IMG/VR virus record: IMGVR_UViG_3300032236_000106
Location: 1-27,982 of that record
Source of the DNA: a virus
Reading direction: 5' to 3' (one strand)
Length of the DNA: 27,982 nt
Position numbers and translations under genes: made by a program
The notes under the pieces: model-generated
Databases searched by the model: none
The model's input: only the letters and a program-made list of their open reading frames with translations
Told to the model about the DNA's origin: nothing
In this document: positions 2,301 to 20,284 of the stretch, piece by piece
Layout: each line of letters begins with the position of its first letter
Position numbering within the stretch: position 1 is the stretch's first letter

Positions 2301-4478
2301 TTACCTCCGACCGTCAGGTCTAATGTCAATACGTGGCGTGCCGAGCTGCCATGAAACGCCTAAGTCAGCAGACCCAACACGGAACGCCATTTGACGGCCA
2401 CGAACTCGAACATAGACGTACTCGGTAAACTGCTGCACGTTGTACGAGCGGACGTTAGAGTAGTTATTTAAGCTGGTTACCGTAGGAGCATCTGAGCTGC
2501 CATAGTCTGCACCGGGGTTTTGGCGTGGGCGGACAGTAAATGTGAGAGAGGGCGAAGCTGAGTCTGACCCATCAAAAGTCACGTCAGGAATGATGCGAGT
2601 AGCCAGACCAAAGTTGTGCCCATCACCGATGTCAAAATCAGAAGACTGCACATACGAAACAATAGCCGAAGGTGGCGTTGTTGTTCCATCATCATTACCG
2701 GTTTCTTGGTAAACAAGCTGCCCAGCATAAGGTGTAGCCATTGGCTCAGCACGAAGAGGGCTATCCAACCAAGCAGTACGGCCCATAGTGCCGTAGTACC
2801 AAGTGCGTTCCAAATGGTTAAAGATGACATACTTATCAACCACGGTGCTGTTAGCGGAACAGTAGAACCACCACACTTCGTTAAAGCCTTCGTTTGTACC
2901 AGCAAAGAACTGATACGACTGGTCCATGTTGATGTCATCAAAGATGTATTGACGAAGCGCGCAAGGGAGAGTTTCCACACGACCAGAGTACATGTAGAAC
3001 TTGTCGGCACCCATCCAGTAGGTCACGTTGTTCGCCGTAGCTACGGTGTTGGGGCCAGCAATCGAAATGTTTGCGCCCATGATTTGGAAGCCCCAAACAT
3101 AGGGTGGGCCTAAGTACTGCATGGAGTACACAGCGGCGTCAGTAAACACCAATATTTCTTGGCGGGTCTGCAAAGCGCTAATGATTTGCGAACCGTTACT
3201 CAGTCGGTAGTCACCAGCTTGGTTAGTGGTTTGCGGAGTCCATGTGTAGAACTGTTCTTGGTCTGACCAACGAATAAGCAATGGGTCTTGAGTTGCGGAA
3301 AAGAGCGAACCTGATGGATCGTTTGCGCCAAATGCAATGACGAAACGCGAAGAGTCCGATACCAAAACGGAGTTAACTATCGAGGGAGTAGTCGAATCCA
3401 TCGTAGCGCCATTGATCGTAGCGCCCGCAGCCATAACAACACCGCGATCAAATGTGTTGACGTTGGCATTAACAGTCCAGTAGTACATAGCGCCACCACG
3501 GGGGTTGAAGATTAAGTCTTGCCCGTAGTTAGATTCGCTCCAAAGACGCAGTTGCTGTCCGACCGCACCAGAAGTAGCTGACGTGCCCCACCCAGAGAAA
3601 GAAGTGGTTACTTGAGTAACTGTAGCCCCGGCAGTGTGTGCCGCTGCTGTAGAGCCATTTGCTCCGCGAGTGCAGCCAGTCAATGTATTTGTAGAAATAC
3701 CAGAATATGTAATGGACTCAGAGTCGATAACGATCGTACCTGTCGAACTAAACCCAGTGGCAGAAGTCAGCACAATGGAAGTAGCACTGCTATTTACAGT
3801 GGTGTTAAGCGTGGTTGTTTGAGAGCCAGTAACAACGCCGCCCCAAGTACCAGCACCCCAACCTGTTGCGTAGGTATAAACATCCAAGCCTGTGTTGATC
3901 TGGTATGTAAACGTAGCCGTACCCGCTGCACCGGAAGAGGTAGCGGGGGAAGACACAACAATGTTGTATTGGTTTGAGTTCAGATAAGTAATCTGAAACT
4001 CTTTGTTTAATGCAGCAGCAGGAATACCATTGACCGCACCGCTAACCCCAGAAATCGTAACAAAGTCATGGTTAGATGCACCATGGCCGGGGTCGTTAAC
4101 AGTTACTGTTGTTGAAGTATTGGTTGTAGTAAACGCGCTTGTTATCCCTGTATGCGTTGCACGTATGGGAGTGATGTCGTAGAACAACCCGTTAGGGCCG
4201 TTCTGAATGTAATATTTGAGGTTAGTACCGACGGCAAGCAAGTTCTGCCCACCAAGCGTAATCCAATTCCACATGGAACGCGCAACACCCCAATACGAGC
4301 CAGTCGGCGGCTGCAATGTTGCTTGTGCTGCGCCCGTATCACGAACCCAACCACCAATTTTTTCGGGGTAACCAGAGCGAAAACGAATCTTATCGCAATC
4401 GAACCAGCCGCCTTCGTTAGAAAGAGTTGTACCCTCGCGGTTTACACCGGGGCGGAATTGTAATTTTTGGAGAGGCAA
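2301..4478 (-). CDS. tail nozzle-like beta-propeller protein (short-tail tubular protein)
   Basis: 725 residues. The N-terminus PLQKLQFRPGVNREGTTLSNEGGWFD and the C-terminus WQLGTPRIDIRPDGRR mark a widespread family of podovirus tail proteins thought to form the distal tube or nozzle. Repeated W-rich strands between about 300 and 600 (IRWSDQEQFYTW, LVFTDAAVYSMQY, YWMGADKFYMYSG, ERTWYYGTMGRTAW) suggest propeller blades. Two extra beta modules are inserted: a GHG module (about 121-192) and an ITYSGI/LTGCTRG module (about 224-290). The start is TTG at 4478: a GGGAG site sits 7 bases upstream and the frame is closed by a stop at 4503-4505, leaving no ATG option. The gene is cut off from the upstream lysis genes by the oppositely oriented homing endonuclease. 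Confidence 0.7.
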   Translation of the reverse strand: MPLQKLQFRPGVNREGTTLSNEGGWFDCDKIRFRSGYPEKIGGWVRDTGAAQATLQPPTGSYWGVARSMWNWITLGGQNLLAVGTNLKYYIQNGPNGLFYDITPIRATHTGITSAFTTTNTSTTVTVNDPGHGASNHDFVTISGVSGAVNGIPAAALNKEFQITYLNSNQYNIVVSSPATSSGAAGTATFTYQINTGLDVYTYATGWGAGTWGGVVTGSQTTTLNTTVNSSATSIVLTSATGFSSTGTIVIDSESITYSGISTNTLTGCTRGANGSTAAAHTAGATVTQVTTSFSGWGTSATSGAVGQQLRLWSESNYGQDLIFNPRGGAMYYWTVNANVNTFDRGVVMAAGATINGATMDSTTPSIVNSVLVSDSSRFVIAFGANDPSGSLFSATQDPLLIRWSDQEQFYTWTPQTTNQAGDYRLSNGSQIISALQTRQEILVFTDAAVYSMQYLGPPYVWGFQIMGANISIAGPNTVATANNVTYWMGADKFYMYSGRVETLPCALRQYIFDDINMDQSYQFFAGTNEGFNEVWWFYCSANSTVVDKYVIFNHLERTWYYGTMGRTAWLDSPLRAEPMATPYAGQLVYQETGNDDGTTTPPSAIVSYVQSSDFDIGDGHNFGLATRIIPDVTFDGSDSASPSLTFTVRPRQNPGADYGSSDAPTVTSLNNYSNVRSYNVQQFTEYVYVRVRGRQMAFRVGSADLGVSWQLGTPRIDIRPDGRR

Positions 4479-4486
4479 GTTATACT
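4458..4486 (+). promoter_or_regulatory. sigma-70-like promoter for the homing endonuclease
   Basis: On the plus strand, TTGTAA (4458-4463) and TATACT (4481-4486) are separated by exactly 17 bases. They match the -35 consensus at 4 of 6 and the -10 consensus at 5 of 6 positions. Transcription would start near 4493, just upstream of a TAGGAG ribosome site and the ATG at 4516. The -10 box overlaps, on the other strand, the GGGAG ribosome site of the nozzle-like gene. Confidence 0.5.
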
Positions 4487-4515
4487 CCCGTATCGGTATT
4501 AACTAGGAGCACAGC

Positions 4516-5049
4516 ATGTACGTTTACATTTGGAAACGCAAAGACGGGACCCCTTTTTACGTTGGTATGTCCAAAAACTTTGGTCGCACCAACCCACTTA
4601 CCGCAGGAGGACGCGGCTGGCTTTGCAAGAAAACGCTTGCAGAAATCGGTCCTAGCAATGTTGTGGTTGAGTTGCATCAAGTTGGTACACAAGAAGAGGC
4701 TGCTAGTTTGGAAAAGCGTCTAATCAAAGAAATTGGACGCATACAAACAAATACAGGGCCGTTGACGAATCTTAAACTAGGTGGAGACGGTTGGCAAGGA
4801 ATGTCTGATGCCGGAAAGGCCAGTCTCAGCGCGTTTGTAAAGGCCAATAACCCAATGCACAATCCAGAAGTTCGCGCCAGAGCTACGGCAAAAATGAATA
4901 GCCCTGAAGTCAAAGCAAAATTCATGGGTGACAACAACCCCGCAAAGCGACCAGAAGTCCGAGCGAAATTACTTGCACGCTGGCAAGACCCTGAGTATCG
5001 CGAAAGACAACGCATTGCTAGAACCGGTAAAAAGCGCATTAAAAAGTAA
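4516..5049 (+). CDS. GIY-YIG homing endonuclease with NUMOD3-type repeats
   Basis: This is the only plus-strand gene, 177 residues, with a TAGGAG ribosome site before ATG 4516. The N-terminal nuclease domain has the variant signature VYIW (3-6) and FYVG (14-17). Arg24 sits where the catalytic arginine is expected, and the helix EEAASLEKRLIKEIGR (60-75) supplies the acidic residue that binds metal in this family. PLTNLKLGGDGWQG (82-95) is the usual end of the domain. The C-terminal half carries NUMOD3-like DNA-binding repeats: NNPMHNPEVRAR, NSPEVKAKF, NNPAKRPEVRAK and QDPEYRER (111-163). The end is very basic (GKKRIKK). Its stop lies one base from the endolysin stop and its start 37 bases from the divergent nozzle-like start, as expected for a selfish insertion between two genes. 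Confidence 0.9.
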   Translation: MYVYIWKRKDGTPFYVGMSKNFGRTNPLTAGGRGWLCKKTLAEIGPSNVVVELHQVGTQEEAASLEKRLIKEIGRIQTNTGPLTNLKLGGDGWQGMSDAGKASLSAFVKANNPMHNPEVRARATAKMNSPEVKAKFMGDNNPAKRPEVRAKLLARWQDPEYRERQRIARTGKKRIKK

Positions 5050-5050
5050 A

Positions 5051-5665
5051 TCAGGCAACAGCGGAGCACTCGCTACAGACATTCAGCGCGAGGTTTGTGT
5101 GAGCCACACGGTCATCAAGTCCAATTGTGCCACCATTGATCTTCTTAGTCAGCCCTGTCCAGTCGGAGGATTCAGCCAATTCGTTGCATCCGTGCGTGCT
5201 CCAGAACCAACCAGCAGTCAGCATTGCATACAACGGCGTAGCCACAAGATCGGGCTGCATGACAAAATCCACGCCCAAAGCTTGTCCAGCATGGAAATAA
5301 TTTGAATAGCCAGTGAGCTGAATACCACCACGGCCCCTAAACCGATAGCCGTCACCACTAGACTCGTCACGATTACCCATCCGAGAAGCGTATACGTTAT
5401 TGGCGATTTTCTTGGGATTTCCTGCATACTGGTTAGCGATTTCGAGAGTGGGAAAACGTTTCGGCCACAGCTTCATCAGCGTAGCAGCTTTGTAATTCAG
5501 GTTTTCTTCGAAGATGCGGAAGTTCCCGCACTCGTGCCCGCACTGGCCGAGGAACGCAGCTTGCTTGCGTGGGGTGTCCATCTTAAATTTGACGAACGTA
5601 GCGTTAAGCGGGTCCATCATCGCAGGGTCAATGTGCAAGCGGTTAAGTTGTGCAGCGGTAATCAT
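5051..5665 (-). CDS. GH19 chitinase-type endolysin
   Basis: 204 residues. A glycoside hydrolase family 19 muramidase-like lysin that degrades peptidoglycan at the end of infection. GHECGNF (43-49) holds the likely catalytic acid Glu45, EENLNY (53-58) follows as in phage GH19 lysins, and RGRGGIQLTGYSNY (110-123) is the family signature. The segment GCNELAESSDWTGLTKKINGGTIGLDDR (159-186) is the usual C-terminal active-site wall. No signal peptide is visible, so export should depend on a holin. The start overlaps the Rz stop as ATGA, completing a holin-Rz/Rz1-endolysin cassette. Cysteines 197 and 200 near the C-terminus are unexplained. Confidence 0.92.
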   Translation of the reverse strand: MITAAQLNRLHIDPAMMDPLNATFVKFKMDTPRKQAAFLGQCGHECGNFRIFEENLNYKAATLMKLWPKRFPTLEIANQYAGNPKKIANNVYASRMGNRDESSGDGYRFRGRGGIQLTGYSNYFHAGQALGVDFVMQPDLVATPLYAMLTAGWFWSTHGCNELAESSDWTGLTKKINGGTIGLDDRVAHTNLALNVCSECSAVA

Positions 5666-15914: not shown

Positions 15915-16343
15915 TTACGTCGTTGATATGGTGACTGTACCAATTTCCACAGCTAACGACAAGTAATTTGGCGTTAAACCTGCATCATTTAAGCTCGCTC
16001 CACCAATAGGGTTCCACCCCCATTGTATGTTGCGACTACCCTCACTTTGAAACCCTTGCTCCAAAATGCTTGTGCTATTTCCATTGAGAATCTGCAAACC
16101 TGTTGTGCCGCCATTAACATAACTGCGGTCAGGACGAGGAGCTTGCAAACCTTGTGGGTCGTCAACGGGGAACATACCCAGTTGCAACTGCGGATGGTCA
16201 GGGTCCCAGCACTCTGGGCACACCAAGAGCTCATAGTTCTTGGTCTTGATAATCTCGCGTTTGAGGACTTTAAGCTTGAACCGTTGGTCGCAACGGTCGC
16301 ACTCTGCAATCGCCCATTTACCGCTGGCGAACCGGTTACCCAT
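15915..16343 (-). CDS. zinc-ribbon phage protein
   Basis: 142 residues. The N-terminal region has two CxxC pairs, CDRC (15-18) and CPEC (42-45), about 24 residues apart, which is the spacing of a small zinc ribbon. They lie in AECDRCDQRFKLKVLKREIIKTKNYELLVCPECWDPDHPQLQLG. The rest (SYVNGGTTGLQILNGNS, WGWNPIGGASLN, LSLAVEIGTVTISTT) is beta-rich. I recall this as a recurrent family next to adaptor genes in environmental phages, without known function. Start ATG 16343 overlaps the previous stop by one base (TAATG). It may bind zinc and help adaptor or tail assembly. Confidence 0.68.
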   Translation of the reverse strand: MGNRFASGKWAIAECDRCDQRFKLKVLKREIIKTKNYELLVCPECWDPDHPQLQLGMFPVDDPQGLQAPRPDRSYVNGGTTGLQILNGNSTSILEQGFQSEGSRNIQWGWNPIGGASLNDAGLTPNYLSLAVEIGTVTISTT

Positions 16344-17272
16344 TAGGTGCCCCCAATGTACTGTTGACGTGGGACAAAGCGTTGCGAAGCCTTTTCGTGG
16401 TCTTCATACGCAGCCAATTCCCATGCCTCGTCGTACTGTTGTTTGAGCATCATCAAGCGCTCAGCGCCTTCTGGGATTTTTCCAGCAACGTAGTAAGCCA
16501 AACCAGCCGCCATACAGGGGATGAATCGGAAAGGCACGTCCATGACGTTCACACCACCGCCCGCATCTTGGGTACGACGTAGACGCCAGTAGACGAATTG
16601 ATATGTTTGCGCGCCGTCTGGAGTCGGCCAGACAGTCACAGCGGGGAGGTTCTGCACTGACACAGGAGCCGATGACGAATGAGACGCCGCAGTGGTGCCA
16701 TTCTGCCCACGGAAACAGCCTGTGAGCTGGTTGCCGCTAATTGCTGTGTAGTTGATGGTCTCGGCGTCGATAAGCACAAAACCAGCTGCTGGCATACCTT
16801 GAGTCGAAGTCAACGTAATCGTTGTGTCAGTAGCCGATATGCCACTCGCAAGAGTCGTGATTGACGCCGCAGTCTGCCCATCCAGTCTTTGGACCCATAC
16901 CTGTATCGGACGAGCTTGCTGAAGCTTGTTTGGGAGGGTCGCATAAGTTGAAACGCTGATACGTGTGATGGTCAAGTCAGCTTGGTTAGAAGTCTGACCC
17001 GCTTGTGTACGGATAACATGCTCAAGCAAATCTACAGTGTCATTAGGCAGGGCGTAGGTGCTTTGACCTTGAACCAAGTCAATCTGACCTTGCTCAATCG
17101 TCCACATGTTGATGCCACGGTTCGCCCAGTCGGCGAACATAATGTTGAGGCTACGGCGCGCTGTGCGCAGGTCATAACCAGAACGCAATTCACGTCCGGC
17201 ACGCTCGAACGCTTCCTCAACTAGTTCGCCTAGATCGAGGTTAAATGAGGTTTGGCCGGAGGTGGTTGCCAT
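16343..17272 (-). CDS. adaptor-like virion protein with an inserted beta module
   Basis: 309 residues. The N-terminal helices (LGELVEEAFERAGRELRSG and LRTARRSLNIMFADWANRGINMW) followed by IDLVQGQSTYALPNDTVDLLEHVIR match a podovirus connector or tail-accessory family. An extra beta module (about 137-206: TTLASGISATDTTITLTS, DAETINYTAISGNQLTGCFRGQNGTTAASHS) is inserted, as in the nozzle-like protein. The C-terminal part (FRFIPCMAAGLAYYVAGKI, LMMLKQQYDEAWELAAYEDHEKASQRFVPRQ) is helical. It has the same overall plan as the adaptor at 14727-15428. Two related connector rings, or one adaptor and one tail-accessory factor, are both possible. Confidence 0.75.
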   Translation of the reverse strand: MATTSGQTSFNLDLGELVEEAFERAGRELRSGYDLRTARRSLNIMFADWANRGINMWTIEQGQIDLVQGQSTYALPNDTVDLLEHVIRTQAGQTSNQADLTITRISVSTYATLPNKLQQARPIQVWVQRLDGQTAASITTLASGISATDTTITLTSTQGMPAAGFVLIDAETINYTAISGNQLTGCFRGQNGTTAASHSSSAPVSVQNLPAVTVWPTPDGAQTYQFVYWRLRRTQDAGGGVNVMDVPFRFIPCMAAGLAYYVAGKIPEGAERLMMLKQQYDEAWELAAYEDHEKASQRFVPRQQYIGGT

Positions 17273-19299: not shown

Positions 19300-19545
19300 T
19301 TAGCAGTTCCACGCCTTTAGGCTTTTGTTGATACGGCTATTTGGGTCTTTGGCTGTCTTAGCGGAAGTCAATTTGCTTTTCATGCCTTCCATGCGCGCGC
19401 AAAATGAATCACGGCGTTTGCCACCCTCGGGCTGTGGAGCCTTGAGGTTCATGCCTTCTTTCTTTGCAGAGGCGCGGCCTTTAGCGTTCAAGCCGCCATT
19501 AGGGTTCTTGCCTTCCTTGCGCTGCCATGCAGGTGATTTAGCCAT
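19300..19545 (-). CDS. small DUF6321-like protein
   Basis: 81 residues from ATG 19545, overlapping the glycosyltransferase stop by eight bases. The sequence SPAWQRKEGKNPNGGLNAKGRASAKKEGMNLKAP, GGKRRDSFCARMEGMKSKLTS and DPNSRINKSLKAWNC fits the small conserved phage domain listed as DUF6321 (family name from memory). Conserved-looking features are SPAWQRKEGKNPxGGLNxKGR and FCxRMxGMK. It has only two cysteines, far apart. No function is known for this family; basic charge suggests nucleic-acid or virion binding. Confidence 0.75.
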   Translation of the reverse strand: MAKSPAWQRKEGKNPNGGLNAKGRASAKKEGMNLKAPQPEGGKRRDSFCARMEGMKSKLTSAKTAKDPNSRINKSLKAWNC

Positions 19546-20284
19546 TGACTGCTTTCAGTTTGGGGGTGCATTGTTCCATCAAAGGCTGCAATACATCCTC
19601 GTTAAAGTCGCGGATGAACTTCTCTTGGCCAACGTGTGGCAAGCTGATTGAAGGGTCAAGGAAGACTGTGAAGCCATCTTCGGCTGCACGGTCACAGAAT
19701 AAGTAGTCTTCGCCGTAGTACTCGCCGTTCACAATCTTCAAGTCAAAAACTGCGCTGTCGGTACGGTTGTCAACATTGTTGAAGTAGTCCCACTCTGGGT
19801 GGTTAGCGATCATCGTCTCAAGAACATGGCGCTGAATCATCATGAACCCTGTGCCAATGCGCTTCACACGAAGCAAACCGTTGGCATCAAACTCAAGAGC
19901 ACCGTTCTCATCCATGTAATAGTCAAGGAAGAACTTGCGGTCCATACCACGGCGAGGATAAATACCAGCTGTGATGTCTTTACCGATACTCAACGCCAAG
20001 AGTCTAAGCACTGCATCAGCAGTAACAACCACATCAGCATCAACAAAAAGCAGCGTATCAGCATCGGATTTAAGGAAGTCCGCAACCAAACAGTTGCGAG
20101 CCTTTGTAATGAGGGAGCACCCCGAGAGGTGCGTGAGGTAGAGCTTAACCCCCAACGACTGGACCTGAACGGCCAGATTGGACAAGGCAAAAGCTGAATC
20201 AATGTTCAGCTTGTTGTCGTAAGCTGGGATCGCAATCATCAGTTTGCGACCAGCTAGGTTAATGCTCTTCTCTGTATCAGCCAT
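19538..20284 (-). CDS. GT-A fold glycosyltransferase (GT2-like)
   Basis: 248 residues. The N-terminus KLMIAIPAYDNKLNIDSAFALSNLA (14-38) fits the nucleotide-sugar binding strand and helix. LLFVDADVVV (78-87) has the DxD motif (DAD, 82-84) that binds the metal and sugar nucleotide. GTGFMMIQRHV (144-154), GEDYLFCDRA (191-200) and SLPHVG (214-219) match acceptor-site and metal-binding motifs of phage GT-A enzymes. It transfers a sugar from a nucleotide donor to an unknown acceptor. It overlaps the head gene upstream by eight bases and the small gene downstream by eight, so it is made together with virion proteins. Virion or DNA glycosylation is inferred only. Confidence 0.85.
   Translation of the reverse strand: MADTEKSINLAGRKLMIAIPAYDNKLNIDSAFALSNLAVQVQSLGVKLYLTHLSGCSLITKARNCLVADFLKSDADTLLFVDADVVVTADAVLRLLALSIGKDITAGIYPRRGMDRKFFLDYYMDENGALEFDANGLLRVKRIGTGFMMIQRHVLETMIANHPEWDYFNNVDNRTDSAVFDLKIVNGEYYGEDYLFCDRAAEDGFTVFLDPSISLPHVGQEKFIRDFNEDVLQPLMEQCTPKLKAVNG

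Follow-up and report, generated by a model that had tools for sequence, protein, structure and literature searches.

The window, as we call the whole 27,982-base stretch analysed here (IMG/VR virus record IMGVR_UViG_3300032236_000106, WIN in comparisons), carries a free-standing GIY-YIG homing endonuclease gene (HEG) on the plus strand (4516-5049), which starts with ATG and encodes 177 aa. On one side lies a noz-like virion structural gene (phrog_3287; 2301-4478, minus strand; TTG start codon at 4476-4478), whose 5' end is the docking site of the HEG; its product, of 725 aa, has a sole strong sequence relative in the PDB, 9nwi_Y, occurring in six chains. On the other side is a GH19 endolysin gene with an intact reading frame (5051-5665, minus strand, stop codon 5051-5053), an incidental upstream neighbour. 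The first-pass annotation had placed the HEG start 37 nt from the divergent noz start codon and the HEG end one nucleotide (5050) from the endolysin stop, and the coordinates agree on both counts. It had also taken the HEG to be the only plus-strand gene, which agrees with the 10 other long plus-strand ORFs, none of which has a PHROG match.

Residues ~214-291 of the noz-like protein form a short domain matching PHROGs 4406 and 7578, as does a tail-region protein (16343-17272), which suggests domain sharing within one phage. Elsewhere in the window, a GNAT acetyltransferase gene (291-755) adjoins the structural genes, and a weak glycosyltransferase match (phrog_12406, phrog_34859) lies within the structural region (19538-20284).

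Between the start codons of noz and the HEG lies what appears to be a HEG-borne bidirectional leader (4479-4515, both strands), which is conserved across the 27 distinct leaders that adjoin noz and is absent at empty sites. Its plus strand contains TATACT (4481-4486), the putative -10 hexamer of a HEG promoter, which is TGNTATACT or TGNTATAAT in relatives, and TAGGAG (4505-4510), the Shine-Dalgarno (SD) sequence of the HEG. Its minus strand contains GGGAG (4486-4490), a candidate replacement SD for noz that abuts the HEG -10 with a one-base overlap. Within the noz coding sequence, a -35-like TTGTAA (4458-4463, plus strand) precedes the -10 with a spacing of 17 nt. The TTGTAA-17-TATACT and TAGGAG signals are thus present where they had been reported, and an independent promoter had been claimed from them. 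Taken by itself, the sigma-70 match is no more frequent than expected by chance (the region has 2, shuffled sequences 4.7 +/- 2.3), and in the window, as in L178 and L179, the TTG or GTG start of noz removes the TG of an extended -10, each of the three having a TTGTAA or TTGCAA -35 at 17 nt; both the chance-level match and the missing TG in the window were counted against our leader model. What makes a HEG promoter credible is the conservation of a -10-like hexamer, which nearly all 27 distinct leaders have at much the same distance. The claim of a promoter of its own is therefore supported by the conserved -10 and leader, with the qualification that the -35 belongs to the coding part of noz and that the leader would also serve noz.

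The endonuclease and its missing C-terminus

The HEG product matches Pfam GIY-YIG (PF01541) with 25.4 bits (cut-off 22.6) and the homing endonucleases of phrog_314 with an E-value of 1.2e-9. Five GIY-YIG residues, Y4, Y15, R24, E66 and N85, are unchanged across 13 homologues, and we take them to be equivalent to the catalytic Y, Y, R, E and N of I-TevI. The best PDB matches of its AF2 model (pLDDT 79.8) are UvrC GIY-YIG domains, with a probability of 0.99 and an E-value of only 0.12. The gene had been described as GIY-YIG/NUMOD3; the first half of this description is borne out, but NUMOD3 gives no Pfam match at E 0.01, and the NNPxxxPE repeats of the protein resemble NUMOD3 by eye only. Where measurable, dN/dS among the HEGs is 0.07-0.46 (computable pairs only), which indicates purifying selection; the values of WIN against nearly all relatives are saturated and unusable.

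Most relatives have 238-280 aa; the window protein, with 177 aa, is missing about 60 C-terminal residues that relatives with complete ORFs have, including the last repeat and the basic tail. Its activity is uncertain because of this loss, and this copy may be weakened or inactive. It is a serious possibility, a little short of even odds, that the window holds a decaying relic of an element that was once mobile and site-specific and has been inactive since it lost its C-terminal module, a history compatible with the explanation that we propose for the family. The shortening speaks for such decay; against it stand an intact reading frame, all five GIY-YIG residues, and an intact start codon, SD and -10.

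The antisense family and its proposed two-way leader

Relatives of the window HEG were found at 40 loci, a number that includes near-copies and that yields the 27 distinct leaders mentioned above. In all 40, and in both antisense subfamilies, the HEG is antisense to noz and starts 31-45 nt from the noz start. The gene on its far side varies, being a GH19 endolysin, a lysozyme-type endolysin or a tail-fibre-like gene, and the anchor is therefore noz and not the lysis gene. The position between lysis and tail genes that had been noted in the window hence holds on the noz side, but the lysis gene is incidental, since relatives have other upstream genes. L113, L116, L117, L125 and L161 have wider gaps before noz, which are not due to the antisense family. 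A pattern search and tblastn returned no relatives of the HEG in bacterial genomes, phage records contain only distant GIY-YIG relatives (28-34% identity), and no noz match lies near the more distant IMG/VR matches (L188-L217, mostly 34% or less), which were set aside for that reason. The HEG tree by itself is poorly resolved.

The conserved leader is ~35 nt long and has the HEG -10 (TGNTATAMT) and the HEG SD on one strand. On this strand the block reads TGNTATACTCCTG...AACAAGGAGA-ATG, and its complement, CAGGAGTATANCA, lies before noz with a spacing that suits an SD. In a further subfamily TGCTATAATTCTCC occupies this position, and there the noz ATG itself gives the TG of the extended -10. 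In comparisons that treat related loci as independent, and whose HEG-positive loci came in part from searches for the HEG, the extended -10 match around the noz start, on the opposite strand, averages 6.4 of 8 at filled sites versus 4.65 at empty ones (p 6e-8), and the noz SD pairs with -6.57 kcal/mol at filled versus -5.46 kcal/mol at empty sites, a modest difference (p 0.017). Leaders also score higher for the extended -10 than shuffled leaders (mean 6.29 versus 5.38 +/- 0.17). At two loci of a single lineage, L241 (290-356) and L243 (262-328), the leader is found at noz with no HEG, and it is probably a scar after loss of the HEG; its retention fits with a dependence of noz on the leader. 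A match to the leader pattern in L239 was discarded as chance, there being no noz there.

The leader could conceivably be only a promoter and untranslated region for the HEG, with the noz SD a by-product of the CTCC beside the -10 and noz translated by other means. The overlap of -10 and CTCC, by which conserving one could carry the other, and the weak noz SDs of L002 and L182 are what this view would expect. We nevertheless consider it unlikely, since GGAG or a close variant lies suitably before noz in most filled sites despite the differing -10 to CTCC spacing of the two leader types, since the antisense insert intervenes and leaves no sense gene near enough for coupling, and since the leader of L241 and L243 seems to have outlasted the HEG.

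Empty sites and recent transfer

The first-pass annotation had viewed the HEG as a selfish element wedged between its neighbours, and had suggested comparing the endolysin/noz junction in relatives without the insertion. In the four closest noz relatives (L091, L106, L012 and L101) there is no HEG, and the endolysin-noz gap is 15-16 nt; their native sequence upstream of noz is of the type GTAGGAAAATACAGCC-ATG. Most relatives are without the HEG, so that it is not a gene carried by all of them, as a fixed part of the region would be. On a noz tree of 87 rows the HEG label requires 9-10 changes, and WIN groups with the same four empty rows (SH-aLRT 98). The site is thus fixed and its occupancy by the HEG varies; it lies outside any intron, and the reading frames on both sides are intact. 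Together with near-isogenic filled/empty pairs and the recent transfer described below, these empty sites and this patchiness on the noz tree strongly support a selfish mobile insertion.

The cleanest of these pairs is L002 (filled) and L131 (empty). Their noz genes are 97.7% identical from +27 and their upstream genes 94% identical up to the stop; what distinguishes the two loci is the insert together with a different spacer and a different beginning of noz (~27 nt), which is what repair with co-conversion would predict. In L002 the native AAAGGAG of L131 still forms the end of the upstream gene, separated from noz by the insert. It had been supposed that the insertion was precise and left both neighbours intact. 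This is so for the reading frames, but the native noz SD was displaced and, in this cleanest pair, ~27 nt at the beginning of noz were replaced. In WIN, nt 4-24 of noz are nearest to the HEG-positive L178 and nt 25-90 to the empty L091, a possible trace of co-conversion that, coming from 21 nt, is suggestive only. The noz genes of L121, L173, L177, L181 and L183 start one codon later (xxxATGTTA, not ATGCCxTTA), and from such starts in HEG-bearing loci the insertion junction seems to lie within the first two codons.

Transfer is seen in L185 and L187, whose leader and HEG are 99.6% identical while the flanks are at about 85% or less; identity drops ~35 nt into noz on one side and shortly after the HEG stop on the other. 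We read this as a recent HEG transfer between diverged phages. At the level of the family, horizontal transfer with co-conversion of flanks is thus seen in L185/L187 and L002/L131. HEG and noz identities are also discordant in places (83% versus 52% for L173/L177). It is very improbable that the HEG became fixed long ago and was then passed down vertically together with noz, being lost many times and no longer mobile: the correlation of HEG and noz identities (Spearman 0.56) and the grouping of WIN, L179 and L121 in both trees would fit, but the sharp identity island over leader and HEG in L185/L187, the regional near-identity of L002 and L131 apart from the insert and the changed noz 5' sequence, and the discordance of L173 with L177 and L178 would not.

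Proposed invasion and retention at the noz start

Our preferred reading, to which we give a probability of roughly 80% from sequence comparisons, is that of a mobile free-standing GIY-YIG HEG that resides at the 5' end of noz and whose two-way leader drives the HEG and rescues noz. The enzyme would cut noz genes that lack the HEG, close to the start, and repair would copy the HEG into the cut gene. The leader would then drive the HEG from its -10 or extended -10 promoter, while its complement would supply an SD to noz, the native one having been removed or stranded beyond the insert. Translation of noz would thus be maintained, and losing the leader would carry a cost. We propose that, with the -10 and the noz ribosome site in one stretch of bases, the phage becomes dependent on the leader.

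The noz start also hosts a second family. In L237 (3956-4720), L238 (3980-4729) and L249-L262, a SegE-like GIY-YIG-type protein is encoded in sense orientation, docked at the noz start, which the 3' end of its gene overlaps or abuts; coupling could in this way translate noz without a new SD. Relatives with at least 58% identity all lie at noz where the downstream sequence suffices (L258 ends before noz). The two families differ in orientation and share, besides the docking site, a similar C-terminal tail (AKKAYWDKK): the last ~20 residues of the SegE-like family are similar to the antisense tail, with 22 residues at 77% identity in L272. On balance we favour the broader view that the 5' end of noz was invaded by two GIY-YIG families in opposite orientations, that the antisense leader would hold the HEG -10 and the noz ribosome site on opposite strands, and that the phage would depend on this leader and keep it after the HEG is lost.

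Several elements of T4 offer points of comparison. segD is a free-standing GIY-YIG gene lying antisense between the essential structural genes 23 and 24, the only antisense HEG of T4, and no segD-specific promoter was found (PMC2988022). The noz-docked family is like it in kind and orientation, but its leader is conserved and its sequences give evidence of mobility at a single site, whereas no replacement SD is reported for segD. segG and other seg and mob inserts, likewise intergenic free-standing HEGs beside their target gene, have embedded host-gene promoters, proposed to favour their retention (PMC2988022). They too bring expression signals for a host gene within the insert; these are, however, promoters for the downstream gene in sense orientation, while in the noz family the signal would be a ribosome site that overlaps the HEG's own promoter on the opposite strand. 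In I-TevI, the promoter adjoins target-like DNA (PMC2988022), a likeness that in the noz family is known here from geometry only; I-TevI is intron-borne with demonstrated autorepression (PMC2988022), unlike the free-standing noz-docked HEG. In the open-access papers searched, there was no report of a HEG leader supplying the ribosome site of the invaded gene. The free-standing HEG is thus most likely of a known kind, and its two-way leader rescuing the invaded gene most likely new.

If our reading is true, it would show how a selfish gene can separate a tail gene from its ribosome site and yet not silence it, and why a HEG inserted in this manner resists removal. With natural alleles of all three states, filled, empty and scar, at one site, the invasion, persistence and loss of HEGs become directly testable in phage tail operons.
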